Shown: piece by piece, positions 6,679 through 35,869 of the stretch
Position numbering within the stretch: position 1 is the stretch's first letter
Layout: each line of letters begins with the position of its first letter
Origin: Maritimibacter harenae
Lineage (GTDB): Bacteria > Pseudomonadota > Alphaproteobacteria > Rhodobacterales > Rhodobacteraceae
Direction: 5' to 3'
Assembly: GCF_009882975.1 (NCBI RefSeq)
Contig: NZ_WTUX01000021.1
Span: forward strand, 14,786 to 61,103
DNA: 46,318 bases
Position numbers and translations under genes: made by a program
Notes under the pieces: model-generated
The model's input: the letters and a program-made list of their open reading frames with translations, nothing else
What the model was told of the DNA's origin: nothing
The model's database searches: none

Positions 6679-6679
6679 C

Positions 6680-9951: not shown

Positions 9952-10071
9952 GTCGCGCGGGTCCTCCCTGTGATCGTGCACAACATGAACGAACGCGCCC
10001 CACGTGCAAGGGCCATCCCGCCCCCTTTCGTCCATCCGCGCCGCGCGCGCCGGGATGCGCGGGCGCCGGGG

Positions 10072-10992: not shown

Positions 10993-11016
10993 GATGCGCT
11001 CCGGGAAATGGTGTTG

Positions 11017-11487: not shown

Positions 11488-11694
11488 CTGTCGCTCTCCG
11501 CGCAGTGTTGGGTGTCGGGGGCATCCTGCCAGACGGTAGGCATGCATATCAATTGCCGTTTGGCCCGATCGTGGTATCCGCCACGTAAAGAACCGTTCGC
11601 ATTGTTCGCAAGAGCCGCGAAGGCGCCACATTGCCGCTCCCGCGCGGTCACAGGCGCGCGCGACAGACGCGCTGCCGAACACATGGGGGTGGGT

Positions 11695-15630
<3,936 letters not shown>

Positions 15631-15924: not shown

Positions 15925-15932
15925 CGGGCCGC

Positions 15933-16529: not shown

Positions 16530-16695
16530 GGTGTCCTTCGAGGCCGCCGTTGTCGTCCGGGTGCGAAGAGCCAACGCCGCACCCGCACGCCCGGGTTCCC
16601 CGCGATCTTACGCCCGGCGCGGACCAAGCGCACCCCGGAACCCGCGACGCCCCTGCCCCGTTTTGACAGCACGCGGACGACAGAAAGGAGCCAAG

Positions 16696-17379
16696 GTGCT
16701 GGACTGGATACAGGAATACGCCGACGTCATCCAGATCGCGGCGAGCGTGATCACGGCGCTCGTCTGGGTCGTCTACCTGCAGATCCTCGTGCACACCTTC
16801 CGGCGGCAGCGGCGTACGAGCCTGCTTATCAACCGGGGCGGCGCACAGGACATGAGCGCGCGCTGCCTGGTCAGCAACATGGGCAGCGAGCCGATCTACC
16901 TGCAGGACGTGCTGGCGGAAATCGAGACCGGAGAGGACCAGTACACCGCGAGCGTGGTCGACCACAGCGAGCTCAGCCGGGACGAAATCGACCGACCCGA
17001 GGAAACGACGAGCCAGGGGCCCGTGCACAGCGGCAGCTTCGTCGATATCGGCAGTTTCCGGGATATCCTCAGCCGGGCAGACCGGTCCATCGGCGACCGC
17101 AGCCGACCGGACCAGGTCCGCAGGCTGACCCTCATCGCGATCGCCGCGAGCAACCAGGCGCAGAACATCGTGGCCGCCTGCCGATCCTTCGACGTGGTGC
17201 GCGAGGAGGGCTCCGAATCACTCCTCCCGCCCAGCGTCCACACGCGCCAGATCCGGAGTTGGCGGAAGCGCCGGCAGCTCACGCGGATCCTCGACAGGCT
17301 CGAACGGGAGAGGGTCATGAAGCAAAGTGTCGGGTCGCAACTGACCGGGACCTATCGGCCCGCCTTGAGGACCGGATGA
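16696..17379 (+). CDS. Single-pass membrane protein of unknown function
   Basis: 227 residues beginning at a GTG with AAAGGAG six bases upstream. Residues about 7-30 form one hydrophobic helix (IQIAASVITALVWVVYLQIL), followed by a basic stop-transfer (RRQRRTS). The rest is soluble, mixed alpha/beta, with LINRGGAQDMSARCLVSNMGSEPIYLQDV near residue 50 and an Arg-rich tail. I do not recognise the family. It resembles proteins that show a short beta-rich domain on the cytoplasmic side of a membrane anchor. It stands alone between exoD (divergent) and the small membrane gene at 17640. Confidence 0.75.
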   Translation: MLDWIQEYADVIQIAASVITALVWVVYLQILVHTFRRQRRTSLLINRGGAQDMSARCLVSNMGSEPIYLQDVLAEIETGEDQYTASVVDHSELSRDEIDRPEETTSQGPVHSGSFVDIGSFRDILSRADRSIGDRSRPDQVRRLTLIAIAASNQAQNIVAACRSFDVVREEGSESLLPPSVHTRQIRSWRKRRQLTRILDRLERERVMKQSVGSQLTGTYRPALRTG

Positions 17380-17456
17380 CGGTTTGCGGGCTTCACCGGC
17401 AAAATGCCGCTGACCACGGGGCGAAAACGGCGCTTCTCATGCTTGAATCGACATTT

Positions 17457-17504
17457 TGCATGCCCACCTCGGGCGTGTCGACGGGGCACACCCCGAGGCA
17501 TGCA
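17457..17504. repeat. Imperfect long hairpin between two plus-strand genes
   Basis: The arms TGCATGCC...CTCGGG...GTGT and ACACCCCGAGG...TGCA pair over about 17 bases with a three-base bulge. No T-run follows on either strand, so it is not a standard terminator. It could be an mRNA stabiliser, an operator or a dispersed repeat. Confidence 0.5.
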
Positions 17505-17639
17505 GCCGCCGGTTAGCAGGTATGAACTGAGTGCATCAAATCAGAGATTTTTCTCTATTGATCGACTCGAAAAACGGGCGTAACGGCGGTTTTTACAACA
17601 CCACTTGGTTTCGCTTTGGAAAGCGGACTGGAGGACGAA

Positions 17640-17762
17640 ATGCTGACACGCGACCAACTGATCAAGGAATACGATGCCCGCCGCGGGACTCTGCCTGCGA
17701 TGCTTGGCGTGTACGGTATTCTTGTGGCCGTCCTCGGTCTGACCGCTTCCGCGATCGTCTGA
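17640..17762 (+). CDS. Small 40-residue membrane protein
   Basis: MLTRDQLIKEYDARRG followed by one hydrophobic helix (LPAMLGVYGILVAVLGLTAS) and a TGA. A strong GGAGGA lies six bases before the ATG. The upstream 100 bases are AT-richer than the surroundings and could hold its promoter. The strong ribosome site, amphipathic charged N-terminus, transmembrane helix and following terminator make it a likely real gene despite its size. No function can be assigned; small single-helix proteins often modulate larger membrane complexes. Confidence 0.6.
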   Translation: MLTRDQLIKEYDARRGTLPAMLGVYGILVAVLGLTASAIV

Positions 17763-17788
17763 GCCACACGTACCAGCGCCAATCGATG

Positions 17789-17817
17789 AAAAAAAGCCCC
17801 GGCGCTTTCGCCGGGGC
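17789..17817 (-). terminator. Rho-independent terminator of the ABC transporter operon
   Basis: GCCCCGGCG and CGCCGGGGC form a perfect nine-base stem with a four-base loop. On the minus strand it is followed by seven T residues. It lies just after the ATPase gene stop. On the plus strand it may also stop transcription from the small gene at 17640, though the T-run there is weak. Confidence 0.9.
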
Positions 17818-17837
17818 CCCTTTCTGCGTGCGTGCGT

Positions 17838-19496
17838 TCAGACGTCGGCCGCTTCGCCCACGTTGTCGACACCGCGTTCCTCGAGGAGCGTGGTGAGCCA
17901 GTTCGGGTCCATCTCGGGCACCGACGACAGAAGCAGGTCGGTGTAGGGATGGTGCGGGGGCGTGAACATCTCGTCCTTCGGCCCCTGGTCGACGACCTTG
18001 CCGTGCTGCATCACGACCACCTCGTCGGCGATGGCGCGCACCGTGGCGAGGTCGTGGGTGATGAACATGTAGGCAAGGCCCAGTTCCTTCTGGAGCCGGT
18101 CCAGCAGCTTCAGGATGCCTTCGGCCACCAGCTGGTCGAGCGCCGATGTGACCTCGTCGCAGATGATGAACTCGGGCTCGGCCGCGAGCGCGCGGGCGAT
18201 GCCGATACGCTGCTTCTGGCCGCCTGACAGCTCCGGCGGATACCGGTTGTAGTACTTCGACGGCTCGAGCTCGATCAGGTCGAGCAATTCGTCGACCCGC
18301 TGCTTGAGGTCCCCACCCTTCAGGCCGGAATAGAACTGCGCGGGACGCCCGATGATCTCGTGGATCTGGACCTTCGGGTTCAGCGCCGTATCGGCCATCT
18401 GGTAGATCATCTGCGCCTGGCGCAGCTGGTCCTTGCTGCGGTCCGTGTAGCGCGGGGGCAGCGTTTCGCCCTTGAACTGGATCTCGCCCGCCGACGGCGG
18501 CAAGAGACCCGTGATGCAACGCGCCGTGGTCGACTTGCCCGACCCGGATTCGCCCACGACCGCGACGGTCATGCCCGGGTAGACGTCGAAGGACACGTCA
18601 TCGAGCACCTTGACCCCGCCGGTATAGGCCGCGTCGATGTTCTTGACCGAGATGATCGGCGGCGTGCCGTCGGTCGGACGCTTCTTCTGCGGACGCTGGA
18701 AGCTGCGCACCGCCCAGAGGCTCTTGGTGTAATCCTCCTTCGGGCTCTTGAGCATCTGCTCGGTCGAGGCCTGCTCGACCTCCTCGCCCTTCAGGAGCAC
18801 CTTGATCGTGTCCGCCATCTGCGCCACGACCGCGAGGTCGTGGGTGATGTAGATCGCGGCGGTGTTGAACTGGTCCACGATGTCGCGGATGGCCGCCAGC
18901 ACCTCGATCTGGGTGGTCACGTCGAGCGCGGTGGTCGGCTCGTCGAAGATGATCAGGTCGGGGCGACAGGACATCGCCATCGCCGTCATCGCCCGCTGAA
19001 GCTGACCGCCCGACACCTGGTGCGGGTAGCGGAACCCGATTTCTTCCGGGTTCGGCAGGCGAAGGCGCTCGTAGAGCTCGATCGCATCCTCCTGCGCTTC
19101 CATCCGCTTCTGGATCCGGTACTGGACCGGCGCCTCGGTATGCTGGTCGATGATCTTGTGGGCCGGGTTGAACGACGCCGCCGCGGACTGCGCGACGTAG
19201 GCGATGCGCGATCCGCGCAGCGCCCGCCGTTCGGCCTCGGTCGCCGTGGTCAGCTCCATCGAGTCGAACTCGATGGAGCCGCCGGAAATCCGCGTGCCAT
19301 CGCGGGCATAGCCCATGGCGGCGGCGCCGATCGTGGACTTGCCGGCCCCGGATTCCCCGATCAGGCCCAACACCTCACCGCGGTGGAGGGTCAGATCGAC
19401 ACCCTTGATGATGTCGATCCAGGTTTCGTCGGAGTAGCCCTGGATCTGGAGATCCTTGATCTCCAGCAGGATGTCCTTGTCGGAAAACTTACCCAT
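17838..19496 (-). CDS. Peptide-type ABC transporter, fused double ATPase (DppD-DppF type)
   Basis: 552 residues with two complete ABC domains in one chain. Domain 1 (about 9-260) has Walker A GESGAGKST, signature VSGGQLQRA and Walker B LIIFDEPTTALD. Domain 2 (about 280-540) has GESGSGKST, LSGGQKQRI and FIICDEVTSALD. The final segment, PHHPYTDLLLSSVPEMDP, is the typical oligopeptide-family C-terminal region. It powers uptake through the two permeases encoded upstream. In Dpp/Opp systems the ATPases are usually two genes; here they are fused, a common variant in alphaproteobacteria. It is the last gene of the operon, one base after the DppC-like stop. Confidence 0.92.
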   Translation of the reverse strand: MGKFSDKDILLEIKDLQIQGYSDETWIDIIKGVDLTLHRGEVLGLIGESGAGKSTIGAAAMGYARDGTRISGGSIEFDSMELTTATEAERRALRGSRIAYVAQSAAASFNPAHKIIDQHTEAPVQYRIQKRMEAQEDAIELYERLRLPNPEEIGFRYPHQVSGGQLQRAMTAMAMSCRPDLIIFDEPTTALDVTTQIEVLAAIRDIVDQFNTAAIYITHDLAVVAQMADTIKVLLKGEEVEQASTEQMLKSPKEDYTKSLWAVRSFQRPQKKRPTDGTPPIISVKNIDAAYTGGVKVLDDVSFDVYPGMTVAVVGESGSGKSTTARCITGLLPPSAGEIQFKGETLPPRYTDRSKDQLRQAQMIYQMADTALNPKVQIHEIIGRPAQFYSGLKGGDLKQRVDELLDLIELEPSKYYNRYPPELSGGQKQRIGIARALAAEPEFIICDEVTSALDQLVAEGILKLLDRLQKELGLAYMFITHDLATVRAIADEVVVMQHGKVVDQGPKDEMFTPPHHPYTDLLLSSVPEMDPNWLTTLLEERGVDNVGEAADV

Positions 19497-25079: not shown

Positions 25080-25124
25080 TGGTGCCGCAGGGGAGGATTG
25101 AACTCCCGACCTCACCCTTACCAA
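25080..25124. repeat. attL: left copy of the 45-bp attachment core
   Basis: Identical over 45 bases to the CCA end, acceptor arm, T arm, variable loop and part of the anticodon arm of the tRNA-Thr gene at the other end. The flanking bases differ on both sides. It lies 16 bases from the integrase stop codon. It is the displaced original 3' end of the tRNA. Confidence 0.95.
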
Positions 25125-25140
25125 CGTCGCGGTCATGTTC

Positions 25141-26238
25141 TCATTTCCTCTTTCTTTTCGGGTATTTATCGGCATCTATGATGTGGTTTTGTACGGGGTC
25201 TGTACGGAACTTCTCGCGCATTTCGAGTTCATTATCCTCGGGTCGAGCGTAGCGTTGGTCTGGCAATACTGAGTTCGTCCAGCGGCCAGCCTTGGCTGCG
25301 CTGATTGGGTCGATGCCCTGTCGAACTCGCAACTCTGTATAGAACCCCGCCCGACCTGCATCGTGGGCTGACATATAGGGGATCCCCGCCTTCTGGCATA
25401 TCGTGGCCCACGCCTTCCGGTATCCGGAGCGGTCGCCATAGCCGAAAACCCGAGCCTCGCCTCTGTGGTCCGTTTTTCGATTGTGAGGCCGCTTGGGAGG
25501 AAGGTTGGCCAGTTCAACCATCATCGCACGCGAGATCTTCACCCATTGGGCCTCGTGCCCCTTCTGAGCCTTCAACCAGACTCTCTGGTTCATCAAATCG
25601 CAATCCTCCGGCAGGAGCGAAATTGCCTGATCGATCCGAGCTCCGGTTTCAAACATGAAGCGGAGAAGCGCGGCATTGTATGGGTCGGCATGGGTGCAGA
25701 ACGCATCAACCCAAGCCCGGTCAGCAGCTTGGCGTTCTCGGCGGCTCCGGTGGCCTCTCGCGGCGTCCTGAGCGATGCGTTCGCTCTTGCTGTAATGCTT
25801 GACCTTGATCGGGTGGCAACGACCGAGTTCGGCGGCATTGTTGATCACAGACCGCACTGGCGTAACCACCTGGCGAAACCAAGTGTCCGTGCTCGCATTT
25901 GGATAATACTTCGGCCCGAGATCCCGGATCTCTTTCGGGGTGATTTCGTTGACGACGCGGGCGCTGAGCTCGTCCAAGATCTTCAGCAGGTACCGTGCTT
26001 CCTTCGGCTTGGCGTCGTACAGTTCCACCGCCTCGCTGAAAGTTAGTTGGTTCGCTTGCGAGCCAAGGAGGTGACCACGGATCGACCTTTGCGTTTTGGC
26101 TTCAATCCATCTCCTTGCGCCTTCTTCAGAAGATGATCCCGTGCTGACCCGCATGTAGTCTGTAATTGGGGTGCCGTTGAATTCGACACGGCCTTTGGCC
26201 CACCAAGTGCTCCCTCGCTTGTATGGTTCGAGCGGCAT
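25141..26238 (-). CDS. int: Tyrosine recombinase, integrase of the element
   Basis: 365 residues. The N-terminal arm-type domain (YKRGSTWWAKGRVEFNGTPI) is followed by a core-binding domain (about 65-165) and a catalytic domain. Catalytic candidates are Arg201 (FETGARIDQA), Lys226, His292 with Arg296 (SAHDAGRAGF), Trp320 in AGRW and the nucleophile Tyr330 (LPDQRYARP). It integrates the element into tRNA-Thr, shown by the attL copy just downstream. The first 196 bases overlap the end of the excisionase-like gene in another frame; the ATG at 26238 has GGAGGGA upstream. The GC content is lower than in the host genes. Confidence 0.93.
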   Translation of the reverse strand: MPLEPYKRGSTWWAKGRVEFNGTPITDYMRVSTGSSSEEGARRWIEAKTQRSIRGHLLGSQANQLTFSEAVELYDAKPKEARYLLKILDELSARVVNEITPKEIRDLGPKYYPNASTDTWFRQVVTPVRSVINNAAELGRCHPIKVKHYSKSERIAQDAARGHRSRRERQAADRAWVDAFCTHADPYNAALLRFMFETGARIDQAISLLPEDCDLMNQRVWLKAQKGHEAQWVKISRAMMVELANLPPKRPHNRKTDHRGEARVFGYGDRSGYRKAWATICQKAGIPYMSAHDAGRAGFYTELRVRQGIDPISAAKAGRWTNSVLPDQRYARPEDNELEMREKFRTDPVQNHIIDADKYPKRKRK

Positions 26239-26429
26239 TGGCTTCCCTCCGTTATGATGCGATCGAGTTGCTCCGGTGAGATCAGCATATCTCTGCCGAG
26301 CTTGTGGCAGGCTCCGAGTTTGTTCGCCAACTCGCGCAGCCTGCGTGCACCAATAGTCAGCCCGCGACTGCGAAGAACGTCAACCCATTGCTCAGGTGTC
26401 TTGCATCTGTCGATTAGAGATCCGGTCAC
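26043..26429 (-). CDS. Excisionase-like helix-turn-helix protein
   Basis: 128 residues. The N-terminal half (residues 10-60) reads as a winged-helix or MerR-like excisionase domain: LTIGARRLRELANKLGACHKLGRDMLISPEQLDRIITEG. The second half is Ser/Thr-, Gly- and Lys-rich, low in structure, and encoded entirely within the 5' part of the integrase gene in a different frame (196 bases). The pairing with the integrase points to control of excision or of integrase expression. Its start overlaps the stop of the gene upstream (ATGA). Confidence 0.72.
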   Translation of the reverse strand: MTGSLIDRCKTPEQWVDVLRSRGLTIGARRLRELANKLGACHKLGRDMLISPEQLDRIITEGSQCRSNHTSEGALGGPKAVSNSTAPQLQTTCGSARDHLLKKAQGDGLKPKRKGRSVVTSLARKRTN

Positions 26430-26977
26430 TGGCCCAACTCCTCGAAGGGTGCTGTCGCGCCGACGTTAAGCCTTGCGATCCACATTTCCCGCAGAACGAA
26501 GATACCTGCCGGCGAGATCTCAAAAGACCAGCGCGAATATGCCCCCCATGAGGTGCACGTCGAAAACGTGGTCATTACCTCAAATTCCCGGCCACCTCTC
26601 GCTGGGGACGCATAGCGGAAGGTCACGTACGGACGGCCAGCGCTTTTCGCGAAGATGATGCCGAAGCAACCCAAGCTCTCTGACTTGTCGAAGATTCTTG
26701 CGAACAAATCGCGCGGCGCCTCCTGCCGGTCGTCGTTTCCGGAAGGCACACCGAGCATCTTCAGCCTCTGACACTCATTGACCACGCCAACTATGTCGCC
26801 TTCGCGCTCCGCCAGGGCGACGGCACAGATTAAGTCGAAGATTTCCTGTGCATTGATGGTCTCTTGCGCACTTGGCGCGAGCCCGTTCTTGGTGAGGATG
26901 CGCGCCCACTGGTACACGTCCGATGCCTGCGCATCGCACACGTGAGCTACCGCGCGCGCGGCTTCAATCGCTCGCAT
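26426..26977 (-). CDS. Unknown protein of the satellite control region
   Basis: 183 residues, cytoplasmic, not recognised. The N-terminal 30 residues (EAARAVAHVCDAQASDVYQW) are helical, the middle is charged and helical, and the C-terminal 90 residues look beta-rich with RPYVTFRYASPARGGREFEVMTT and a Trp-rich segment (TSWGAYSRWSFEISPAGIFVL). It is coupled to the excisionase-like gene by ATGA. Its position between capsid genes and integrase suggests regulation, helper interference or a cargo function; none is proven. Confidence 0.65.
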   Translation of the reverse strand: MRAIEAARAVAHVCDAQASDVYQWARILTKNGLAPSAQETINAQEIFDLICAVALAEREGDIVGVVNECQRLKMLGVPSGNDDRQEAPRDLFARIFDKSESLGCFGIIFAKSAGRPYVTFRYASPARGGREFEVMTTFSTCTSWGAYSRWSFEISPAGIFVLREMWIARLNVGATAPFEELGQ

Positions 26978-27017
26978 AGCGTTCTCCGATGAAGATTTGG
27001 GGTGGCGACCCTTAAGG

Positions 27018-27057
27018 GGAAAAAGAAAAACGCCCGCGAGGAAATTTCCTCCGGGCG
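27018..27057 (-). terminator. Rho-independent terminator inside the element
   Basis: The arms CGCCCG-C-GAGGAAA and TTTCCTC-CGGGCG pair almost fully around the palindrome GAGGAAATTTCCTC. On the minus strand it is followed by TTTTTCTTTTT. It ends transcription of the head/zinc-ribbon/small-gene block and separates it from the integration module. Confidence 0.85.
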
Positions 27058-27125
27058 CAAAGGGGTCTAGTCGACTTTGTCAAGCTGAGCAGGAAATGTC
27101 AAAAACTTTCTTCGCAATTCGGTCC

Positions 27126-27449
27126 CTAATTGGCAGTTCGGCGCCTCATCAGCCCTAGCAGGCGAATCATGCGCATACCGTCTCCGTCTTCATTTAGCGC
27201 CATCAACGCCCGCAGCCACGGTCCCCGCTCGCCTTCTGGGAGGGAATGCAACATGCGCAGAAGTTCCTCATCCGCCGGCAGCTGCACGTCGCCATCCAGG
27301 CGCGGCTCAGCATATGTCAGGGTCAGCAAGTCATTTGCCAACAACTCGCGACGCTCGGAAATAGCCAGTATGGAGAGGTGGAAGATCGCACGGCTAGGAT
27401 CGTCCAATCGGTCAGCGATGCGGTTCAGGTCTTCGGTGTTGGTACACAT
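27126..27449 (-). CDS. Small unknown protein of the satellite
   Basis: 107 residues, mostly helical and acidic: DLNRIADRLDDPSRAIFHLSI, ISERRELLANDLLTL, and an Arg-rich end (MIRLLGLMRRR). The ATG at 27449 follows AGGAGG; the longer frame from 27512 has no such site. An inverted pair, GTCGCC and GGCGAC, about 30 bases upstream may be an operator. No family recognised. It stands alone before the terminator at 27018. Confidence 0.65.
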   Translation of the reverse strand: MCTNTEDLNRIADRLDDPSRAIFHLSILAISERRELLANDLLTLTYAEPRLDGDVQLPADEELLRMLHSLPEGERGPWLRALMALNEDGDGMRMIRLLGLMRRRTAN

Positions 27450-27524
27450 GGTTGCCTCCTGAGGCGATCCTAGATGACGTCGCCTTGTTCGCCTAATCGC
27501 AAATGGCGACATGATCCGACCGCC

Positions 27525-28127
27525 TTATCCCTTTGCGCGCTTCCTGCGGTTTTCTTCGGACCAACGGCATTTCTTGCTGCAGTAGATCATACGAAGGTCC
27601 GCGTGGCGTGGAATCTCAGTCCCGCAACTCACACAATGGCGGTTGCCCATGCCATAGCGCCGGTCGTCTTTCCGCGACGCATCTTTGCACTTGTCTGAAC
27701 AGTACTTGCGGTCAACGCGGGTCGGGAGTCCGGTGGCCGAAAACTCTGGGATGGGCCCGCTGCAGAAAGCACACTGCCAGGCGCCCTTGGCTTCGATAGT
27801 AGCCGCACGCTTCATCCGCCTTCTGTGGGTAGACCGACACTTCGTTGAACAGAACATCACGTTGTCCCGCCTGCGCATACCAGACGCGGACCGTTCTGGG
27901 AGAAGTCTGCCGCAGCAATCGCATTCCGCACCTACGACGTCTTTCGCTTCGAATTCACGGCCAGCCGCACCGCCGTTTGCTCGTTCGCCGCTTTCAGCGA
28001 GGCGATGTAGTGGTGCATCGCCATGCTGCAGGCTTTTCCGCAGAACTTGTGATGCCCCTCTGGCAATGGCGCGCTGCAGCGAACGCAGCGGGTCCGCTCG
28101 ATCAGGAGCCCTTCGTGTATCACCCAT
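27525..28127 (-). CDS. Triple zinc-ribbon protein of the satellite
   Basis: 200 residues if started at the ATG at 28127, which has GAGGGA about nine bases upstream. Three CxxC...C-x3-C modules follow one another: CDCCGRLLPE...MFCSTKCR, CAFCSGPIPE...KYCSDKCK and CVSCGTEIP...IYCSKKCR, each likely binding one Zn. The first 65 residues overlap the previous gene and have no visible fold. There is no ATG, GTG or TTG between that overlap and the first zinc module, so the zinc part can only be reached from the early start, by frameshifting from the upstream gene, or from a very weak start. The role is unknown; DNA or RNA binding is plausible. Confidence 0.65.
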   Translation of the reverse strand: MGDTRRAPDRADPLRSLQRAIARGASQVLRKSLQHGDAPLHRLAESGERANGGAAGREFEAKDVVGAECDCCGRLLPERSASGMRRRDNVMFCSTKCRSTHRRRMKRAATIEAKGAWQCAFCSGPIPEFSATGLPTRVDRKYCSDKCKDASRKDDRRYGMGNRHCVSCGTEIPRHADLRMIYCSKKCRWSEENRRKRAKG

Positions 28128-28453
28128 TCCGGTTGTCCCTCGTTCCAGGTGGGCCGTACCGCACGCACGCGGCGGAAGGCTTCGGCGAGCATGTCGCAGG
28201 CAGTCAGGTCAGCAGTTCCCCAGCTCCAACCCTGCAAGCACAGATCCGCACGGATACCGGCTCTGAGTGGGCCTTCCATGCCCCAAAGAGACGCCGTCGC
28301 CCCGGCGTCGAACGCCAGCCTGATCACGTCCGCCAGCTCCTTCACCAATGCGTCATAACGCGTCCTTCCAAGTTTGCCCCGCCGGGCCTCTAGCGCGCGG
28401 CGCTCCTTCCTGCGCTGCGATTTTCGGGCGGCTGGGGTCATGACCAGCATCAC
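27932..28453 (-). CDS. Single zinc-ribbon protein of the satellite
   Basis: 173 residues. A basic N-terminus (RKSQRRKERRALEARRGK) and helical middle (RYDALVKELADVIRLAFDAG, DMLAEAFRRVRAVR) precede one zinc ribbon (CVRCSAPLPEGHHKFCGKAC) of the same type as the three in the next gene. It starts four bases inside the end of the portal gene. The last 196 bases overlap the triple-ribbon gene. A -1 frameshift near the end would join the two into a four-ribbon protein. The function is unknown; its place after the portal could mean a packaging or regulatory role. Confidence 0.68.
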   Translation of the reverse strand: MMLVMTPAARKSQRRKERRALEARRGKLGRTRYDALVKELADVIRLAFDAGATASLWGMEGPLRAGIRADLCLQGWSWGTADLTACDMLAEAFRRVRAVRPTWNEGQPEWVIHEGLLIERTRCVRCSAPLPEGHHKFCGKACSMAMHHYIASLKAANEQTAVRLAVNSKRKTS

Positions 28454-29523
28454 GCTGCCGCGTCGTTTGCGCCCCAGCTCACCAGCTTCATCGCTAGCTC
28501 TGGGTCGACCCCGGCCTCTTTTGCCTGGGCCAGCGCCTGGACGATGCCGGCCGCTGCCCGTGCGCGTCCGCCTGCGTCGAAGGCCTGAAGAGGCCGCATC
28601 ACGTCGATTGCCACCGGCGCGCCCAGCTTCTCGCTCGCTTCTTCAGCCATGAGCGCGGCCATCGGTTGAAGCACCCACTGCGCCACGTGGCGTTGCGCCT
28701 CGCGCACCATCGGCCCCGTCGTCGTGGAGCTCAGAAGGCCGGGCAGCACGCCGAACACCCCGAGGATCGAGGCCCGCGCCGCATCGAGGCTTTCGCGCGT
28801 CATCGAGCGGCTGAGGTCGGGCGACAGGTCCGAGGGTTTCCAGTCCTGGGCCGGAGCGGGACCACCGCCGGCGGTGACGTTCACGCTCTCCCGCAACAGG
28901 ATGCGCCCCCTGCGGCCGCGGAATGACCGGCTCAGGGTCTCGTTGTCCGTCTCGGGCGACTCGGGCATGGGCACGATTTGAGAGCCCAACGGCATGTCGT
29001 CATATGCTTCGGAAAGCGCGGTCTCCACGGCTTGAAGCATCCCGGCCGTGAGCTGCGCCCGTTTCAGCGGGGCCGAGCCCGCCCAGGGCACCACACCATC
29101 AACGCCGGTGCGGAAATGGAGAACCTCGGCCGCGAGCGCGGTCTGCGTCTTGCCGCCCCCAGCCTCGGCAATGCTGACCCGGTAGGCCCGAGGCACGCCG
29201 TCCCGCGTGGACAGATCCCAATCGCTGCACGGGACCACCTGGCCGGTGTCACGGATCAGGAACACCGCTTCGCCGCGAAGAGCCAGCGCGCGCCCTGCCA
29301 TCGCCATGTGTCGCCGGGACAGAAGCGGCGTGCCCTCGATATCCGCCAGGGCAAGCCCGCCCTCCCAGAGCGAAACGCACATCTGCGTGGTGCCGGTCAG
29401 CTCCGCGATTCCGCGCCGGCCGCTGATGTAGGATTCGCGCGCCGACATGAGCTCAGCGGTGAAGCCCGACATGCTCGATCGCTTCTCGGTTTCGGGCTCG
29501 GCCCGTTTCGTGAATGGCCACAT
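28450..29523 (-). CDS. Phage portal protein (HK97 type)
   Basis: 357 residues. The start (MWPFTKR), the HMAMAGRALALRGEAVFLI stretch, EVLHFRTGVDG, and the SMTRESLDAARASILGVFGV...LPGLLSSTTTG helix-loop region match short HK97/siphovirus portals. In a virion twelve copies form the ring through which DNA enters and leaves the head. It follows the connector gene and precedes the zinc-ribbon gene with a four-base overlap. Confidence 0.88.
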   Translation of the reverse strand: MWPFTKRAEPETEKRSSMSGFTAELMSARESYISGRRGIAELTGTTQMCVSLWEGGLALADIEGTPLLSRRHMAMAGRALALRGEAVFLIRDTGQVVPCSDWDLSTRDGVPRAYRVSIAEAGGGKTQTALAAEVLHFRTGVDGVVPWAGSAPLKRAQLTAGMLQAVETALSEAYDDMPLGSQIVPMPESPETDNETLSRSFRGRRGRILLRESVNVTAGGGPAPAQDWKPSDLSPDLSRSMTRESLDAARASILGVFGVLPGLLSSTTTGPMVREAQRHVAQWVLQPMAALMAEEASEKLGAPVAIDVMRPLQAFDAGGRARAAAGIVQALAQAKEAGVDPELAMKLVSWGANDAAA

Positions 29524-29525
29524 CG

Positions 29526-30059
29526 TCAGGCCCTCCTATACTTGCGGAGAAGGTCGCCAGCGCCGGAATACTGCATCGCCCTGGCGAGCCAGCTTGGCGT
29601 CCGTTCGATTTCCTCTGTCATTTCGCCCAGCTTGAGCGCGTAAGACGCAGTGCCTGGTCGGTCGTTGCTCTCGGCCATGTATTCGGCCAGCCGCTTGAAG
29701 GCTTCGTTCACCTCGGCCGGAACGGTCCCGCTGCCAACGGATGCCGTGAAGCGGTAGGGCCCCTCGCCGGGCAGGTCATAGCCGCCCAGGGGTGAAGCTG
29801 GGGGCGTCGTCACGGTCCAGGCATTGCTCTCCCACACCTCAACCGTGCTGACGGTCGCCGGGGTGAGCGGCGCGGTCCACTCGCCGTCGCCCTCAACGAT
29901 CCAGGTCACGTCTCGCGCAGTCCACCGCCAGGCAATGAACGCCTCGATCCGTGCCCAGATCATATCGGAGTCGAGCGCGGCCGCCGCCGATGAAAGCCCA
30001 GCGGGCACGCTCGGATAGCTGGACGGCACCGCCTCGGTTTGCTTGATCGTTACCGCCAT
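29526..30059 (-). CDS. Head-tail connector-like protein
   Basis: 177 residues from the ATG at 30059 (GGTGGAAAG upstream). The layout is a helical start, a beta-rich middle (YDLPGEGPYRFTASVGSG) and helical ends (EVNEAFKRLAEYMAES, PSWLARAMQYSGAGDLLRKYRR). This is what I expect of gp6/DUF3168-type head-tail adaptors coded next to portal and protease in Rhodobacterales phages. The assignment rests on position and fold impression rather than a strong motif. Confidence 0.65.
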   Translation of the reverse strand: MAVTIKQTEAVPSSYPSVPAGLSSAAAALDSDMIWARIEAFIAWRWTARDVTWIVEGDGEWTAPLTPATVSTVEVWESNAWTVTTPPASPLGGYDLPGEGPYRFTASVGSGTVPAEVNEAFKRLAEYMAESNDRPGTASYALKLGEMTEEIERTPSWLARAMQYSGAGDLLRKYRRA

Positions 30060-30661
30060 CTTTCCACCCCCAACAGCTTGCGCGGAGCCTCCGCGTGTTC
30101 CTGTCGTAGCGCCCAATTGCGCGCCTCAACCTGGGTCTCCGAGTAGGCGGGACGAGTGACCAAGCTCAATTCGTAAAGGATTGCCTCATGGATCGTGCGG
30201 ATGAGCGCCTGCCCTTCCTCGGGCGGTTCTTCCTTGATCGTCTCCGCATCCTTCACCGTGCGCTCCGGCGGGATCCTGAAACCTGGTGAAATGCCGATGA
30301 TCAGGCCAGCAGCCAGGCCGGCGAGCGCGTCGCGCACGTAACCGACTTCCATCAGCGCCGGCGCGATTTCGGCCGAGAAGGTCAGCGCATCGTCAGTGTC
30401 CGTCAGCTTCATGCTGCCCGCGCCGCGACTTGCGAGCGGCCGATCGAAGCTGTGACCGACCAGCAGATGCACTTCCTGGTCATTCTCGACCGAATGCCGA
30501 AAGGCCCCGGACGCGAATTGTTCCTTTCGCGGTCGCCCTGTGCGGCCCCCATCGGAGAGGACCGCCCGCGAATTGTAGGGGAAACGCCCGGACAACCGGG
30601 CGCCCCCATCTGGTTTGCGGCGAACCTCGAGCCCGCCATTATGGAAGCCGTAGAGCATCAT
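30050..30661 (-). CDS. HK97 family prohead protease
   Basis: 203 residues, cleaving the capsid scaffold region during head maturation. The family markers are RPRKEQFASGAFRHSV, His70 in LLVGHSFDRPLAS, Ser125 in AGLIIGISPGFRI and a Glu in HEAILYELSLVTRPAYSETQV that completes the usual motif. It follows the capsid gene on the transcript. Its end overlaps the connector start by ten bases. Confidence 0.92.
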   Translation of the reverse strand: MMLYGFHNGGLEVRRKPDGGARLSGRFPYNSRAVLSDGGRTGRPRKEQFASGAFRHSVENDQEVHLLVGHSFDRPLASRGAGSMKLTDTDDALTFSAEIAPALMEVGYVRDALAGLAAGLIIGISPGFRIPPERTVKDAETIKEEPPEEGQALIRTIHEAILYELSLVTRPAYSETQVEARNWALRQEHAEAPRKLLGVERWR

Positions 30662-30664
30662 GGA

Positions 30665-31930
30665 TCACACCTGGATGCCGGTGATGACCTCGAGCTGCAC
30701 CGCGCGGGCCACGGTTACATCGAGTGTCGCCAAGGCGGTAATCCGAAGGCCACCCGATGCCGCATCGCTGAACGGATCCCGGATCATGTCCACCGCACCC
30801 CATTTGCCCACGAAGATCGGCGACACACCCCCGGCCGCGGTCGTCAGCAGCGCCTTGCATTCCTCCGGCGAGCCGGTGGGGTCGGCGAGGCCATTGGTGG
30901 ACATGGCGATGTTGGACGACGGGATGTTCTTGGTGAGACGATCCCACTCTGTCACGCCGGTCCCCGTGTCGATGTAGGTGTCATCCATCGAGTCCCAGAC
31001 TTCGGGGCGGATGAGCATCCGGGCCGCACCCGGCGAGCCCGCCGCGTTGGCCTGCATGAACCGGACCACCGCCGCCCGGAACGCTGCCCAGGTCGGAGCG
31101 CCGGAAAGGTCGGTTTCCGTGATGCCGTAGGTCGAGGCCCCGGCGACGACGCCGAGCGGCTCGCCCGAAGACCCCGCGCCCAGGAACACCACCCGGTCGA
31201 CCTCCTGGCCCATCGCCGCGTTCATGTCGCGACGCACGGCCGCCTCCATCGCAGCCCCGGATTGCTTCAGCGCCTTGCGGGTGATCTTCATTTGAACGCC
31301 AAGCGTTTGATCGGGTGCCAGCGCCTTGTCCGTGGTCTGGAATGCCTGGGGCGACCCCACGGAACCGGTTTCCGAAGTCTGCCAACCGACCGACGCACCT
31401 TGCGTCACCACCGGCCACTCGATTTCGCCGTGGTCGATCGAGATCATCTGCGCGCCCATGCGGGCGGCCACGCTGTCGGGAAACAGCCGGTCGATGATCG
31501 GTCGGGTCTGGATCGGGTCGGGCGTGCCGGAAGCGATGGTTTCGCCGGCGCGCTGTTCGAGAGCCTCCCACGGAACCGGGACACCCTGGTATGCCCCGTG
31601 GCTGCGGAGCTCCTGCACGATTTCCGCGGTCTGGCCGTCGATCTGGTGGCCGTGGTCTAGGGCCATCGCCACCTGGCGAACCTCGAAGCTGCCCATCAGC
31701 TCCGACCATTCGCGTTCCGAACGGGTTTCAAGCTCGGCCCCGGCTTCGCGGCGTTCCTCGTCTTCGGCCACCAAGGCGGCCCGGTAGCGGGTTTCGTTCG
31801 ACCGATACTCGCGGTCGAGCTCATCCATCTGGCGCACCTCGTCTTCCGAGGGCGAGTCCTTGCCCGCCAGCCCGGCGAGGGTCTGGCGAATTTCCGACTG
31901 GCGCCGGGAGATTTTCACACTGTCGAGCAT
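30665..31930 (-). CDS. HK97-fold major capsid protein
   Basis: 421 residues. Residues 1-110 are charged and helical, like the delta scaffold domain of HK97 gp5 (SRRQSEIRQTLAGLAGKD, LDREYRSNETRYRAALVAED), and would be removed by the protease. The shell part has FPDSVAARMGAQMISIDHGE, QMKITRKALKQSG, DRVVFLGAGSSGEPLGV and a final ALATLDVTVARAVQLEVITG. The ATG at 31930 has AAAGGAA upstream. Capsid and protease next to each other, with no scaffolding gene, is the HK97 plan. Confidence 0.93.
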   Translation of the reverse strand: MLDSVKISRRQSEIRQTLAGLAGKDSPSEDEVRQMDELDREYRSNETRYRAALVAEDEERREAGAELETRSEREWSELMGSFEVRQVAMALDHGHQIDGQTAEIVQELRSHGAYQGVPVPWEALEQRAGETIASGTPDPIQTRPIIDRLFPDSVAARMGAQMISIDHGEIEWPVVTQGASVGWQTSETGSVGSPQAFQTTDKALAPDQTLGVQMKITRKALKQSGAAMEAAVRRDMNAAMGQEVDRVVFLGAGSSGEPLGVVAGASTYGITETDLSGAPTWAAFRAAVVRFMQANAAGSPGAARMLIRPEVWDSMDDTYIDTGTGVTEWDRLTKNIPSSNIAMSTNGLADPTGSPEECKALLTTAAGGVSPIFVGKWGAVDMIRDPFSDAASGGLRITALATLDVTVARAVQLEVITGIQV

Positions 31931-31944
31931 GTCATTTCCTTTCG

Positions 31945-32259
31945 TCACTGCTCTTGGAGCCCCTTGCGGAGCAAGGCTTTCCACGCCTCGCGGGCGGGAT
32001 CTTCACGGCCGAGGCCGATTTCGAGGCGGGTCTTGCGCGAGTGGCAGGAGCCGCACAGGGATTGGAGATTGGCGAGAACGAATGAGAGGTCAGGCCGATC
32101 GCGCACGGGCTTGATGTGATCGACCTCGAGCCGGCCGCGCGCCCCGCATTTCACGCACTGGAAACCGTCGCGACGGAGTGCCTCGAGACGCAATCCTTTC
32201 CAGCGCCGCGAGCGCGTCACCTTGTCCGAGTGCCGGCGATATTCGCGGATCATGCCCAT
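31945..32259 (-). CDS. HNH endonuclease
   Basis: 104 residues with two CxxC zinc pairs (Cys35/38 and Cys69/72) around the HNH core: EVDHIKPV (Asp47-His48), Asn64 in VLANLQSLC and His73 in CGSCHSRKT. Such small HNH proteins sit beside TerL in many HK97-type phages and cf-PICIs and assist genome cutting during packaging. It overlaps the TerL stop by ten bases. Confidence 0.92.
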   Translation of the reverse strand: MGMIREYRRHSDKVTRSRRWKGLRLEALRRDGFQCVKCGARGRLEVDHIKPVRDRPDLSFVLANLQSLCGSCHSRKTRLEIGLGREDPAREAWKALLRKGLQEQ

Positions 32260-33764
32260 ACGAAGCGCCCCCCGTTCGAGGCAGGGCGACCGATACGCCG
32301 CGCACCTTCAGCCACGGCCAGCACCGATGCCGCCGCCGCGTCGATCCGGCCCAGGCTGCGCGCCTTGGCCAGCTTGTGGTTGCCGGCCGGGTCCACCAGC
32401 GTGATCGCGTCCGCGAAGGCGGAGCGCAGGAGAAGCGAGGGCGCCGCCTGGACGTGCCCATCGAAGAGCGCACGCCGGAACCGTTCGATATCCTCGCTGC
32501 CATCCTTCCAACCGAACCCGCGCCATATGAACGGGACGCGGAGCCCGGCCCGCTGCATGGCTTCGGAAAACTCAGCATGGCGGAACCGGTCGCCAACGAT
32601 GCAAGCCGGCGCAGACCCGTCCGCGACCTTCATCAGTTCGGCCAGCCATTGCGCGGGCGGAACCGTCGCCTCGCCCATGGTCCAGAGCTCACCGCGTTCG
32701 TGCATTTGCGAATACCGACCAGACACGCCATCCGCTGCGCCCCGATCGGCAAGGGTCGGCTGAGAAGGGAAACATCCATACGCCTCGAGCCTTCCCGTCC
32801 TGGGCCAGTAGAACGCGGCCGCCGACATGGAGCGCGAACCGCCCAGGTCCACGCCCAGGATGCACTCGCCTTCGCGTTCCGGCAGATCGTCAGGCGCCAC
32901 CTCAGCAGCGAGCCATTCATCCACCGTGACCAGCACCGATCGGTCATCCGTGCTCACACGCTCGTTGCGGTTGAGGTTTCGGAAAGAGCTGAGAGCGGAG
33001 CCGCCACGGGCAACCGCGCGCCGCGCCTGGGCCACCAGCCAGTCCGCGCTCGCCCCGATTCCTTCGGTGGCACCGGGGTTCGCGACGAGCAGGCTTTCCA
33101 GATCGTCGGCCGGCAGCCCGAACGCGGGCCGGTGCTCTTGCACATACGTGCCGGGGGGCGGCTCATCGAGCCACCGGCTGAAGGTATTGGCGTCGTCTGG
33201 GGCACTCGTGCTGATGATCAGCGCCGTGCCGTCCCGCTTGCCGAGGCCGGAGAGGATCGCGTTTTCGAGGTTGTCGCCCTTCTCGCGCTCCCATGCCGCC
33301 CGCTCGTCGAGGATTGCCAACGTTGGCGCCCCGCCGAGAATGGACTTCCCGTCAGCCGCGATGCAGCGCGCGAGGCCCCCGCCGTTGCCGCTGTATTCGA
33401 CCTCGAGCTTGGATCCGCGCCGGACCGTGAAGAGCTCCTGTTCTTCCTCGGAAAGCCCCTCCACGAACCCGGTCAGAAACTGGAAGGCGATCTTCGCCTG
33501 GTCCCGGTTGCGCGCAGCGAAGATAATTTCCCGCTTCGGCTGATCGTCCCACACGCCCATCAGAGAGCCGAGCGAGATGCCCGCCGAAAGCGCGGTCTTC
33601 GCGTTCCCGCGCCCGATCGAGAGACAGGCCACCATGTTGGCCGGCTCCATCGCCCCCGTCACGAAGTCGCGCTGAAACTGCGCCAGGCGAAGCGGCTCGC
33701 CGGCCTTCGGACCCTCGGGGATCTTGAGGGTCTCGAGGAAGTCGATCGCGGTCTCGGCCGTCAT
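32250..33764 (-). CDS. terL: Terminase large subunit
   Basis: 504 residues. The ATPase half has FQRDFV...ACLSIGRGNAKTAL (Walker A, residues 51-57) and APTLAILDERAAWE (Walker B, Asp153-Glu154), then IISTSAPDD as the coupling motif. The nuclease half has ILGVDLGGSRSMSAAAFYW, IVGDRFRHAEFSEAMQR and RIDAAAASVLAV with the acidic residues expected for metal binding. It is a Terminase_1-type packaging motor. No clear small subunit is next to it. Its start overlaps the Arr-like gene stop. Confidence 0.92.
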   Translation of the reverse strand: MTAETAIDFLETLKIPEGPKAGEPLRLAQFQRDFVTGAMEPANMVACLSIGRGNAKTALSAGISLGSLMGVWDDQPKREIIFAARNRDQAKIAFQFLTGFVEGLSEEEQELFTVRRGSKLEVEYSGNGGGLARCIAADGKSILGGAPTLAILDERAAWEREKGDNLENAILSGLGKRDGTALIISTSAPDDANTFSRWLDEPPPGTYVQEHRPAFGLPADDLESLLVANPGATEGIGASADWLVAQARRAVARGGSALSSFRNLNRNERVSTDDRSVLVTVDEWLAAEVAPDDLPEREGECILGVDLGGSRSMSAAAFYWPRTGRLEAYGCFPSQPTLADRGAADGVSGRYSQMHERGELWTMGEATVPPAQWLAELMKVADGSAPACIVGDRFRHAEFSEAMQRAGLRVPFIWRGFGWKDGSEDIERFRRALFDGHVQAAPSLLLRSAFADAITLVDPAGNHKLAKARSLGRIDAAAASVLAVAEGARRIGRPASNGGRFVWA

Positions 33765-34303
33765 TCGACCACCTCAAGGACCGTGGCCGATGGGCAGGTC
33801 AACGCAGCCTTGTTGGCGTAGGAAGCGACAAAGTCGTCTCGAAATACCGATCCAAACTCGCGGGTCTCTCGCGCCATTTGCGGACTGCCGAGAAGAATGG
33901 CGACCGTGCGGACGCACCGCAGATCAATCCCGACCTCGCCTTTCGGCTGCACTCGATACAGGGAGCCTGCACATCCTTCCGCGAATTTCTCCGCGTCCTC
34001 GATCACTGGCGTGACGTAGACGGACTGCCGACGGAAATCTGCATCCTGGAAGCCATGAGGGTTTTGCCCTGTAGTGCCGCCCGGCAAGAGAAGGTCACCG
34101 ACCTCGCGCCCGCGTAGTCCACCGTGAAACAGCGGCGCATCGCCCTCTAGAGACGCCAGCATCTGCTGTTCGATCTGGACTTCTCGCTCGCTTAGGCCTG
34201 TTTCCTCATAGCGTTCAATCACCCGGCGAACGGCCGGAACCATTTGCTGAAATGAAAGCTTCGAAGTCTTGCGATAGAGGACACGGCGTTGTTTCCGGTT
34301 CAT
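33761..34303 (-). CDS. Arr-like ADP-ribosyltransferase-fold protein
   Basis: 180 residues. A very basic start (MNRKQRRVLYRKTSK) and helical segment come first. Residues 57-130 then read PLFHGGLRGREVGDLLLPG, QSVYVTPVIEDAEKFAEG and LYRVQPKGEVGIDL. This is the order and spacing of rifampin ADP-ribosyltransferase Arr (YHGT..VGD...PG, VYFT, A..A, .YxVxPTG), with His60, Tyr96 and an acidic residue (Asp127) at the positions of its His-Tyr-Asp triad. It lies in the capsid operon next to terL, so a host or helper-phage target is more likely than an antibiotic. The fold assignment is by motif only. Confidence 0.55.
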   Translation of the reverse strand: MNRKQRRVLYRKTSKLSFQQMVPAVRRVIERYEETGLSEREVQIEQQMLASLEGDAPLFHGGLRGREVGDLLLPGGTTGQNPHGFQDADFRRQSVYVTPVIEDAEKFAEGCAGSLYRVQPKGEVGIDLRCVRTVAILLGSPQMARETREFGSVFRDDFVASYANKAALTCPSATVLEVVE

Positions 34304-34397
34304 GATTTCACCTCGGATTTTTTCGGGAGAGGGAAAGGAACACCCCCATCCCCGACCCCTCCCGGGGACACAATTCCGGGCATTGGGACCTTAATAA

Positions 34398-34793
34398 TCA
34401 CCAGATGCTCGAAACCGCCTCGGCGGCGTTTGCCTGGACAATGCTCCGCCACTTGCCGGCCGCAATATCTCGGAATTGGTTGCCAGGTCGGCCATTGCCC
34501 CCGTATTCGGCCAACCGCTCGTACCCGGTAGACCAACCACCTGTGACGACGTCGCCTGCACGCATCGCGGCTGCGATCGCCACGTAGCTGGTCGCGCCCT
34601 TCATCCGGCCAGCACGCCCCTCGACGGTCAGGCTCTCGCGCAACCGGCCGCTCTCAACGGGCATATTGCCACCCACGCTTCGGGGGCGTTGGGCTTCCTT
34701 GAACACGTCACGCGTGCTCCTGCTGGCGACGTAGTCGAACCGCTTTTCATAAATGTGAATGAGCTTTCCGATGTCACTGAAACTTACTTCCAT
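34398..34793 (-). CDS. HK97 gp10-like neck / tail-completion protein
   Basis: 131 residues. The pattern is KRFDYVASRSTRDVFKEAQRP...NMPVESGRLRESLTV, a variable middle, GYERLAEYGGNGRPGNQF, then RDIAAGKWRSIVQANAAEAV. This is the plan of gp10-type proteins that finish the head-tail joint in siphophages: an initial helix, a VxTGxLRxS strand, an EYGxxG loop and a final helix with W..IV. In a satellite it would adapt the head to a borrowed tail. The 94 bases to the next gene hold C-rich runs but no clear site. Confidence 0.65.
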   Translation of the reverse strand: MEVSFSDIGKLIHIYEKRFDYVASRSTRDVFKEAQRPRSVGGNMPVESGRLRESLTVEGRAGRMKGATSYVAIAAAMRAGDVVTGGWSTGYERLAEYGGNGRPGNQFRDIAAGKWRSIVQANAAEAVSSIW

Positions 34794-34838
34794 GACGATG
34801 CCTTTCGTTTGGATGCTGAGCGCAGTCGCCTTTGTGGG

Positions 34839-35558
34839 TTAGGCGTCATTGCCCGCCTGGGCCTTTGCGCGGGCACGGGCGAGCAGGCCGCTGGCCGGCG
34901 CAGGAGCGTCTACATTTTGGGATTTGCGATATGCCTTTGCGCGACGCATCCATGCTTTCCAAGCGGCATCGAGGTTCTGGAACCGAGATCCTTTGGCAAT
35001 GTGATGAAGCGCGCAGAGCTTCGTTTCTTGATCTATGTCGTGATCTGTGAAGCCTTCAGCCCAAGCCCATCGTTTGAGCTCATCCCCCGGTTCCCATTCT
35101 TCACTGAAACCAAAGGACTGTTGATCGCTTTTGCGTCCCTTACCGGTTACTTCCCGGTTCCTTACCGGTTTGTCTCCGGTGGGCTGGAGATAGGTCGTGT
35201 CCTGAATTGGAGATAGGTCGTGGTCCAAATTGGAGTTAGGTCGGGCCCTATCTCCAGAATTTGGAGTATGGTCCGTTGTGCGTTCGAAACCCAAAACGTA
35301 GCGGGTCGGCAGACGCTTCTTTTCTTTGTCGTCGTAGCGCCTTTTCCGTTGGATCAACCCGCGATCTTCCATGCTGCGAAGCGCGGTGTTGAGCGTGCCA
35401 TTCGAGACCCCAGCCCGTTCGATCAAATAGGCTTGCGTGGGAAAACAGCCATGAGACGGATTGTGGCAATCACATAGATGAAAGAGGACGCGGAATTCTG
35501 AAGCAGAAAGTTGATCGGCCGGAATCGTCGCCAGCCAATGGGTCGCAGAGTGGCTCAT
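34839..35558 (-). CDS. Helix-turn-helix replication initiator-like protein
   Basis: 239 residues from the ATG at 35558. Residues 15-85 form a winged helix (LSASEFRVLFHLCDCHNPSHG, CFPTQAYLIERAGVSNGTLN, RSMEDRGLIQRKRRYD), as in phage replication and HTH_36 proteins. The middle is polar. The C-terminal part, DIDQETKLCALHHIAKGSRF...DAAWKAWMRRAKAYR, resembles the end of phage initiators that follow DnaT- or O-type arrangements. It is the first gene of the element from the tRNA side, after a 237-base leader rich in inverted repeats that could hold the origin and operator. A small-terminase role is also possible. Confidence 0.7.
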   Translation of the reverse strand: MSHSATHWLATIPADQLSASEFRVLFHLCDCHNPSHGCFPTQAYLIERAGVSNGTLNTALRSMEDRGLIQRKRRYDDKEKKRLPTRYVLGFERTTDHTPNSGDRARPNSNLDHDLSPIQDTTYLQPTGDKPVRNREVTGKGRKSDQQSFGFSEEWEPGDELKRWAWAEGFTDHDIDQETKLCALHHIAKGSRFQNLDAAWKAWMRRAKAYRKSQNVDAPAPASGLLARARAKAQAGNDA

Positions 35559-35794
35559 CACGCCACCCTGCTGACGAGTCTGACCGCGGGCCGACCGTGA
35601 CAGCCGATACGCGGTGCACAAGTCCCTTCAAATCCCCATGAAGCAGGAACAGTTCCGGAACATTTGGCCGGTTCCTGTACTGGAATTGTACGCGAGGCAC
35701 CGGAATCGATCGAGTTCGTTCGTGCATCGTTCTGCATCGACAGCGAACGCAGGAATTTCTCGAACCGGCAAGTATTTGAATTTATGGGGTGTTC
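35559..35794. promoter_or_regulatory. Leader with clustered inverted repeats at the tRNA end of the element
   Basis: CAGGAAC at 35644 and GTTCCTG at 35671 form an inverted pair around the perfect palindrome GTTCCGGAAC at 35652-35661. TGTAC repeats around 35676-35690. This is likely the main promoter/operator of the head operon and could also include an origin or packaging site. No gene fits. Confidence 0.5.
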
Positions 35795-35839
35795 TGGTGC
35801 CGCAGGGGAGGATTGAACTCCCGACCTCACCCTTACCAA
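35795..35839. repeat. attR: right copy of the 45-bp attachment core, within tRNA-Thr
   Basis: Forms the 3' half of the intact tRNA-Thr gene and is identical to attL at 25080. The sequence of the tRNA is restored by the element, so integration leaves a functional tRNA. Confidence 0.95.
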
Positions 35840-35869
35840 GGGTGCGCTCTACCACTGAGCTACTGCGGC
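35795..35869 (-). tRNA. tRNA-Thr (anticodon GGT)
   Basis: The minus strand reads GCCGCAG at the 5' end, D arm AGCTCAGTGGTAGAGC, anticodon arm CACCC-TTGGTAA-GGGTG with GGT, T arm with GTTCAATC, acceptor CTGCGGC and an encoded CCA. All arms pair. It is the attachment site of the element. Confidence 0.97.

Follow-up and report, generated by a model that had tools for sequence, protein, structure and literature searches.

Genome organization

The window analysed here, a 46,318-nucleotide stretch of the Maritimibacter harenae genome, carries between positions 25080 and 35839 an integrated element of 10,760 bp with both terminal repeats (10,715 bp as a circle) that encodes head, packaging and neck proteins of phage type together with an integrase, and is read below as a probable phage satellite. 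The element abuts a tRNA-Thr(ggt) gene predicted with ARAGORN, whose 3' part is duplicated exactly at the opposite end as a 45-bp repeat (Table 1). A duplicated tRNA 3' end is the usual mark of integration into a tRNA gene, and the limits of the element were therefore set at the two copies, confirming the 10.8-kb element with precise tRNA-derived ends proposed in the original prediction, which was made from the sequence of the window alone. The 14 called genes are all encoded on the minus strand, and the G+C content is 0.625 inside the element vs 0.68 outside. IMG/VR also contains the same element, in a viral contig of 10,418 bp (L097).

The genes are transcribed in the order replication initiator, gp10-like neck protein, 180-aa protein, terminase large subunit (TerL), HNH endonuclease, capsid, S78 protease, adaptor, portal, two zinc-ribbon-like proteins, two unknown proteins, and integrase. 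The major capsid protein, head protease and portal (PF05065, PF04586, PF04860) all score above the curated Pfam cut-offs, as do the integrase (PF00589), the HNH protein, and the ATPase and nuclease domains of TerL, and the gene at 34839-35621 matches replication-initiation PHROGs; the predicted head module, integrase and replication-type gene are thus all present. A connector and a neck protein had also been proposed, and candidates for both were recovered. The protein between protease and portal, here called g196, is read as the adaptor from an AlphaFold model built from 26 relatives (pLDDT 87.5), for which the top six Foldseek matches are phage neck or portal-complex entries, only the first of them below E=0.001. 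The neck protein is 40% identical over 77% of its length to a "tail protein" of Paracoccus phage Pkon1 that precedes the tail terminator, and its counterpart in relative L021 matches PF04883 (E=0.008, below the cut-off). A capsid model of moderate confidence (pLDDT 68) matches the capsids of roseophage R4C and of the Rhodobacter capsulatus gene transfer agent (RcGTA), as well as encapsulins.

Table 1. Features of the element, with positions in the window.
Feature	Positions	Strand	Evidence and remarks
att repeat, integrase end (copy of tRNA-Thr 3' end)	25080..25124		exact repeat of 35795-35839
Tyrosine integrase, 365 aa	25141..26238	-	PF00589 E=1.7e-8; phrog_1 E=2.6e-15; its cluster in 9 loci
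Possible excisionase-like helix-turn-helix (HTH) open reading frame (ORF), overlaps integrase	26043..26429	-	weak: PF20063 E=0.02, below cut-off; skipped by gene caller
183-aa protein, likely regulator from its position	26426..26977	-	no significant family match
128-aa protein, unknown	27126..27512	-	no significant match
Treble-clef zinc-ribbon protein	27525..28127	-	PF09889 E=3.4e-5, below its cut-off; phrog_2308 and phrog_1271 ~1e-7
173-aa protein with C-terminal zinc-ribbon motif (by eye), after portal	27932..28453	-	no family match; cluster of 7 genes in 6 loci
Portal protein	28450..29523	-	PF04860 E=2.7e-10
Adaptor / head-tail connector (g196 family)	29526..30116	-	no family match; identified by predicted fold
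Prohead protease, Peptidase S78	30050..30661	-	PF04586 E=3.4e-17
HK97-fold major capsid protein	30665..31984	-	PF05065 E=4.4e-14; phrog_617 E=3.2e-20
HNH endonuclease of packaging module	31945..32259	-	PF01844 E=7.7e-10; phrog_144 E=6.5e-23
Terminase large subunit, HK97 type	32250..33764	-	PF03354, PF20441, phrog_9 E=1.4e-53
180-aa accessory protein	33761..34303	-	only phrog_17296, function unknown
HK97-gp10-like neck / tail-junction protein	34398..34793	-	Paracoccus phage homologue
Replication initiation protein (HTH_36 / O-like)	34839..35621	-	PF13730 E=9e-10; phrog_270 E=1.2e-15
tRNA-Thr(ggt), integration target	35795..35869	-	ARAGORN; its 3' 45 bp (35795-35839) are the other att repeat

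Relatives and insertion sites

A capsid profile built from the window capsid and those of six relatives (seven sequences) retrieved 147 relatives from GTDB contigs and 357 from IMG/VR, and the best 80 of each were kept. Most belong to Rhodobacterales, where a family had been predicted, but the family extends to Hyphomicrobiales, Sphingomonadales and Reyranella. The window and 80 relatives made up 81 loci, of which 53 were retained with at least 6 kb on either side of the capsid gene; the other 28 had less than 6 kb on one side or lacked a capsid call (L088 has no capsid gene call). Elements were classed as bounded when their repeat overlaps a tRNA gene or is at least 25 bp long. This holds for 45 of the 53 loci, window included, leaving eight that meet no repeat rule (L024, L030, L050, L053, L055, L059, L061 and L093); loci L011-L016 duplicate some of L017-L096 and are outside the 45. 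The bounded elements form circles of 9,367-11,276 bp (median 10,313 bp, standard deviation 405 bp, n=45), and 41 of them target tRNA genes, of 17 kinds, eight of these 41 assignments depending on repeats of only 15-16 bp. Repeats of at least 18 bp spaced 8.5-12.5 kb apart were found in 36/53 loci vs 0/159 block shuffles, and repeats at 15 bp in 49/53 loci vs 10/159 shuffles.

Gene content is equally constant. TerL, capsid and portal were found in every bounded element by gene call, protease and HNH in every one by tblastn, and the integrase in 44 by tblastn and in the last, L037, by gene call. The head module and integrase therefore recur at other tRNA sites, as had been anticipated.

The capsid gene was detected in 42 of 394 genomes (E<=1e-40; three only at 1e-45 to 1e-49) sampled from the bacterial family of the window, which is Rhodobacteraceae in the GTDB sense (judged by the loci of the sample), with nearly all genomes from different genera. 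Strong capsid matches occurred in 2 of 385 genomes of a class-wide sample and in 5 of 398 of a phylum-wide sample, both counts including the genome studied here, and all five of the latter fall in the same class. One relative (L017), with a 79% identical capsid, lies in a contig binned as Oceanospirillaceae (Gammaproteobacteria), which may reflect mis-binning or a host jump. Another (L018) comes from Wenxinia marina DSM 24838.

Search for tail and lysis genes

PHROG scans of the window proteins returned no tail or lysis family, in agreement with the original prediction. Across the family, representatives of the non-core clusters were scanned against PHROGs and Pfam (117 proteins) and in a second PHROG scan (102 proteins); neither tail nor lysis families were among the best 25 of 76 PHROGs for the first set, the best 25 of 47 for the second, or the 25 of 31 Pfam families listed. 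The families listed concern head closure, replication, primase, excisionase, partition, regulators and unknowns. Twenty-nine tail-region proteins from the resident prophage, a gene transfer agent (GTA)-type cluster and a P2-like prophage gave zero matches to 2,832 family proteins. A thirtieth query, the tape measure of relative L164, matched only itself and L055, and among the eight loci that meet no repeat rule the tail queries matched L055 only.

In L164 this 547-aa tape-measure-like gene (6386-8029) immediately follows the portal gene of an element that is otherwise tail-less. L055 additionally encodes a Neck1 protein and differs in its location, for this family member (4346-17840) is embedded in the portal gene of a prophage and reads in the direction of its late genes. 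The two pieces of the split portal align with one portal family (phrog_146, 587 positions) at 24-251 and 262-586 and are 61-63% identical to Rhizobium phages. A 42-kb IMG/VR contig (L215) was considered as a tailed phage with this head and rejected; here (L215/L225-L226) the element stands beside separate P2-type-prophage-like genes, whose names were read by eye from 40 kb of sequence without a family scan.

Alternative neck modules

Two adaptor types are found in the 45 bounded elements (tblastn), a gp6-like adaptor in 22 and g196 in 22, with both never occurring together and neither present in one element. Profile comparison detected no kinship between the two adaptors (probability 6%). Each is accompanied by its own stopper, one type occurring only with the gp6-like adaptor (14/14) and the other only with g196 (8/8), and a distant relationship between the two stoppers is possible (61%). 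Matches to RcGTA were seen for the gp6-like adaptor, to the adaptor Rcc01688 (E=2.5e-18), and for its stopper, to Rcc01689 (1e-3), this stopper also matching a putative head-tail adaptor (2.8e-6); the stopper of the g196 type matches the phage stopper gp12 (1.1e-9). On the capsid tree, neck type needs at least six changes, three of them forced by well-supported branches, vs 14.7 for shuffled labels, and is therefore also inherited. These patterns suggest that the neck is an exchangeable part, its tail-side proteins perhaps being swapped to fit the tails of helpers.

Host genome

Three PF05065 capsid genes are present in the M. harenae genome: that of the element, one in a GTA-type cluster (identified by eye and gene order), and one in a prophage situated close to the end of contig 57. 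PHROG matches in this prophage include a tape measure (2e-73), major tail protein, tail terminator, Neck1 and further tail proteins; the tail family PF10145 had no match in the genome (control positive in 7/14), the prophage tail genes being seen by PHROGs. The prophage integrase is 63% identical to the common type of the family, its stopper and adaptor are 40% and 32% identical to those of the gp6-like neck, and its TerL, protease and HNH are 27%, 44% (over 144 residues) and 38% identical to their family counterparts, with no capsid or portal match. This resident tailed prophage is a possible helper, although the window element has the g196 adaptor, unlike the gp6-like neck that the prophage resembles. 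The gp10-like protein of the element has no second copy in the genome. Neck proteins of the host GTA-type cluster are 31% and 34% identical to those of the gp6-like neck; that members with this neck could dock on host-encoded GTA tails is conceivable and quite improbable.

The right flank of the element was matched in all eight genomes of the genus, its own included, and five of the seven congeners have a tRNA-Thr gene beside it, with no element DNA matched.

Selection and relation to phages

Median dN/dS, calculated from pairs at >=80% identity, is 0.117 for the capsid (79 pairs), 0.106 for TerL (93), 0.086 for the portal (85), 0.112 for the protease (36), 0.129 for the common integrase (15), 0.122 for the gp6-like adaptor (6), and 0.276 for g196 (14). 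By these ratios the head genes are under purifying selection, and the core frames are intact. Against 50,697 phage records, the capsid matched 22, all below 60% identity, with the 20 listed at most 29.6% identical, and TerL matched 100, those listed being about 30% identical; the portal and g196 had no match at E<0.01. The stopper and gp10-like neck proteins reach 38-41% in the same records, and the gp6-like adaptor 32%. In a tree that sets them against a sister group and six phages, the 45 capsids form one side of a branch (support 95/88), a count that leaves out the HK97, GTA, prophage and two fused capsids.

The sister group has a capsid about 30% identical to that of the family and the gene order TerL, (HNH), capsid, protease, adaptor-sized gene, portal, and small gene, as seen in L234-L236 and, among eight IMG/VR contigs (6.2-12.8 kb), in the more complete ones, and it had no match to the tail queries. 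Two other loci, L155 (whose proteins are 100% identical to those of L051) and L161, have a tandem neighbour with an integrase and a different, fused protease-capsid protein (phrog_4523; 587 and 595 aa), perhaps a second class of head-only element.

These results bear on the alternative of a defective prophage. A tailed phage stripped of its tail, lysis and late genes by deletion would account for HK97-type head genes next to an integrase in a host with other phage-derived loci (a siphoprophage and the GTA-type cluster). The resident prophage is not a likely parent because it has no capsid or portal match and a TerL of 27% identity, despite its 44% identical protease. Nor would deletion readily give constant size and content in elements spread over many genera and 17 kinds of tRNA gene, purifying selection on the head genes, a portal without match and a capsid with listed matches of at most 29.6% among the phage records, or a sister group that is likewise head-only. 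Deletion-derivative and prophage-remnant origins were rejected on the phage-record searches, the resident prophage, selection and the sister group, and we regard them as improbable. The original prediction had named a parental prophage and decayed frames in relatives as grounds for abandoning it, and neither was found.

Accessory genes

The 180-aa gene at 33761-34303 had been called Arr-like, a name we do not retain, as it has no Pfam match, no PDB match below E=0.17, and a PHROG of unknown function. For the zinc-ribbon gene, the earlier name is backed by two PHROG matches near 1e-7 and a treble-clef model that stays below its cut-off. Both had been presented as the family's own genes and are instead accessory, the former occurring in 2 of 87 gene-called loci and the latter as 7 genes in 6 of 87, with more in viral contigs. 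The gene caller puts the start of the 27525-28127 zinc-ribbon gene at 27815, and the true start is probably well inside the ORF. The two zinc-ribbon ORFs overlap in different frames (27525-28453), and for the second the upstream start probably arose from ORF calling. An HTH match does exist where an excisionase-like gene had been proposed (26043-26429); it is sub-threshold and the ORF overlaps the integrase. This is the only candidate regulator by HTH match in the window, whereas AlpA and HTH_17 matches occur in some relatives.

Comparison with known systems

As described, capsid-forming phage-inducible chromosomal islands (cf-PICIs) are integrated elements of satellite size that lack a tail and encode terminase, HNH and a head made with their own capsid, head protease, portal and head-tail connectors (PMC10690885). 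The family has the same anatomy bar a recognised small terminase subunit (TerS), compared by description only. By the same kind of description, the main host groups of cf-PICIs are unlike those of this family (PMC10803314), and the two alternative necks also set it apart. The capsids of cf-PICIs fall into three clades (PMC11389934), about 900 of them have been aligned (PMC13230959), and one has been likened to the RcGTA capsid (PMC12846349). As cf-PICIs are described as "widely distributed across Bacteria" (PMC10690885) and abundant in diverse taxa (PMC11773190), alphaproteobacterial members may already be in published sets; no report of capsid-forming satellites in Alphaproteobacteria was among the matches listed in the open-licence literature searched.

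Other satellites, as described, share parts of this design. The cf-PISP TG54 of Vibrio crassostreae has head genes, HNH, terminases, a PF05065 capsid, a small genome and no tails, and differs as an episomal satellite-plasmid without integrase in Gammaproteobacteria (PMC13230959). The Streptomyces satellites MulchRoom and MiniFlayer have their own capsid and packaging genes, like the family, and MulchRoom also an integrase, plus a tail equal in length to that of its helper; they differ in terminal repeats, virulent helpers and a scaffolding protein, and have no significant similarity to other satellites (PMC10690885). Helper-embedded PICIs are, like L055, inserted co-oriented in a prophage, and differ in being from Enterobacteriaceae with integrase, AlpA and primase, whereas L055 has the head module described here (PMC10111431).

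RcGTA and roseophage R4C have an HK97-fold capsid like that of the family, at low identities across the head. Both make complete tailed particles. Adaptor and stopper of RcGTA type occur in relatives with the gp6-like neck, whereas the window element has the other adaptor family. The element further differs from RcGTA-like GTAs, which are head-tail clusters without integrase, in its integrase and att repeats, and from tailed temperate phages in that no tail module was detected.

Interpretation

We conclude, with a probability of about 0.85, that what is integrated here is a capsid-forming phage satellite of alphaproteobacteria, cf-PICI-like in function and in need of helper tails; the anatomy of the family supports the cf-PICI design proposed at the outset. 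As far as the sequence supports it, the tyrosine integrase would insert the element site-specifically at the 3' end of tRNA-Thr, and the genes would serve to initiate replication, build an HK97-type procapsid from capsid, protease and portal, package DNA with TerL and HNH, and add a neck. Upon induction of, or infection by, a tailed phage, the element may excise and replicate, and its ~10.7-kb genome would be packaged into small heads of its own, probably by the cos-type route through TerL and HNH that HK97-like phages use. Heads closed by the adaptor and neck proteins of the element would then be joined to helper tails, and the helper would supply lysis as well.

A number of observations weigh against this conclusion. 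Left flanks differ in the congeners with a tRNA-Thr beside the right flank, and none of the seven offers a clean empty site. Tape-measure-like genes, 40% identical to each other, do exist in the two relatives L164 (547 aa) and L055 (741 aa). The family, at ~10.3 kb, is smaller than the 14 kb given as the cf-PICI average (PMC10803314). No recognisable separate TerS gene was found in the window (Pfam and PHROG scans) or among the family matches listed, and a TerS search of the small family genes c7 and c9 found nothing; the HNH protein also matches phrog_4581, labelled terminase small subunit (E=1.2e-12). When the HK97, GTA and prophage capsids are counted, all three of them on very long branches, the best capsid tree needs two changes for the 45, with a single group not rejected (p 0.35), and a single origin of the 45 satellite capsids is thus allowed.

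The element might instead be primarily a defence or decoy island against phages, its heads made in excess to sequester phage tails, with little transfer of its own. Heads with tail-joining proteins would indeed compete for helper tails, yet integrase and packaging genes are under purifying selection (common integrase 0.129, TerL 0.106), the replication gene is kept, and the element is present at many sites in many genera, which makes this very improbable. A domesticated, GTA-like particle maker that packages host DNA to the benefit of the cell is highly improbable: the capsid fold is close to that of RcGTA and the gp6-like adaptor (E=2.5e-18) and stopper (E=1e-3) of relatives resemble RcGTA proteins, but integrase, att repeats, tRNA sites and patchy occurrence (42/394 genomes) are mobile-element traits, the host has a separate GTA-type cluster, and no tail genes were detected in the element. 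A self-sufficient tailless virus whose heads infect without helper would fit the head module and replication gene and is extremely improbable, as the element encodes portal, adaptor and neck proteins, which in tailed phages serve tail joining, and no receptor-binding or lysis family is among those listed.

Beyond the satellite reading itself, we suggest tentatively, and at somewhat less than even odds, that the family is an independent alphaproteobacterial radiation that has long kept one head and changed helper by swapping neck modules, with the GTA-side neck, the portal-embedded element and the tape-measure forms, whose own tape measure could set tail length, among its variants.

Significance

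Rhodobacter capsulatus is the GTA model species, and its strain DSM 1710 has an element of this family (L073) at tRNA-Thr with the gp6-like neck, so the satellite reading is directly testable. If that reading is true, about 1 in 10 sampled genomes of a marine-rich bacterial family carries a satellite with its own head and a borrowed tail, which would be a gene-transfer route in the very family that is home of the gene transfer agent. The two alternative necks on one head are a natural experiment on which tail a head accepts.

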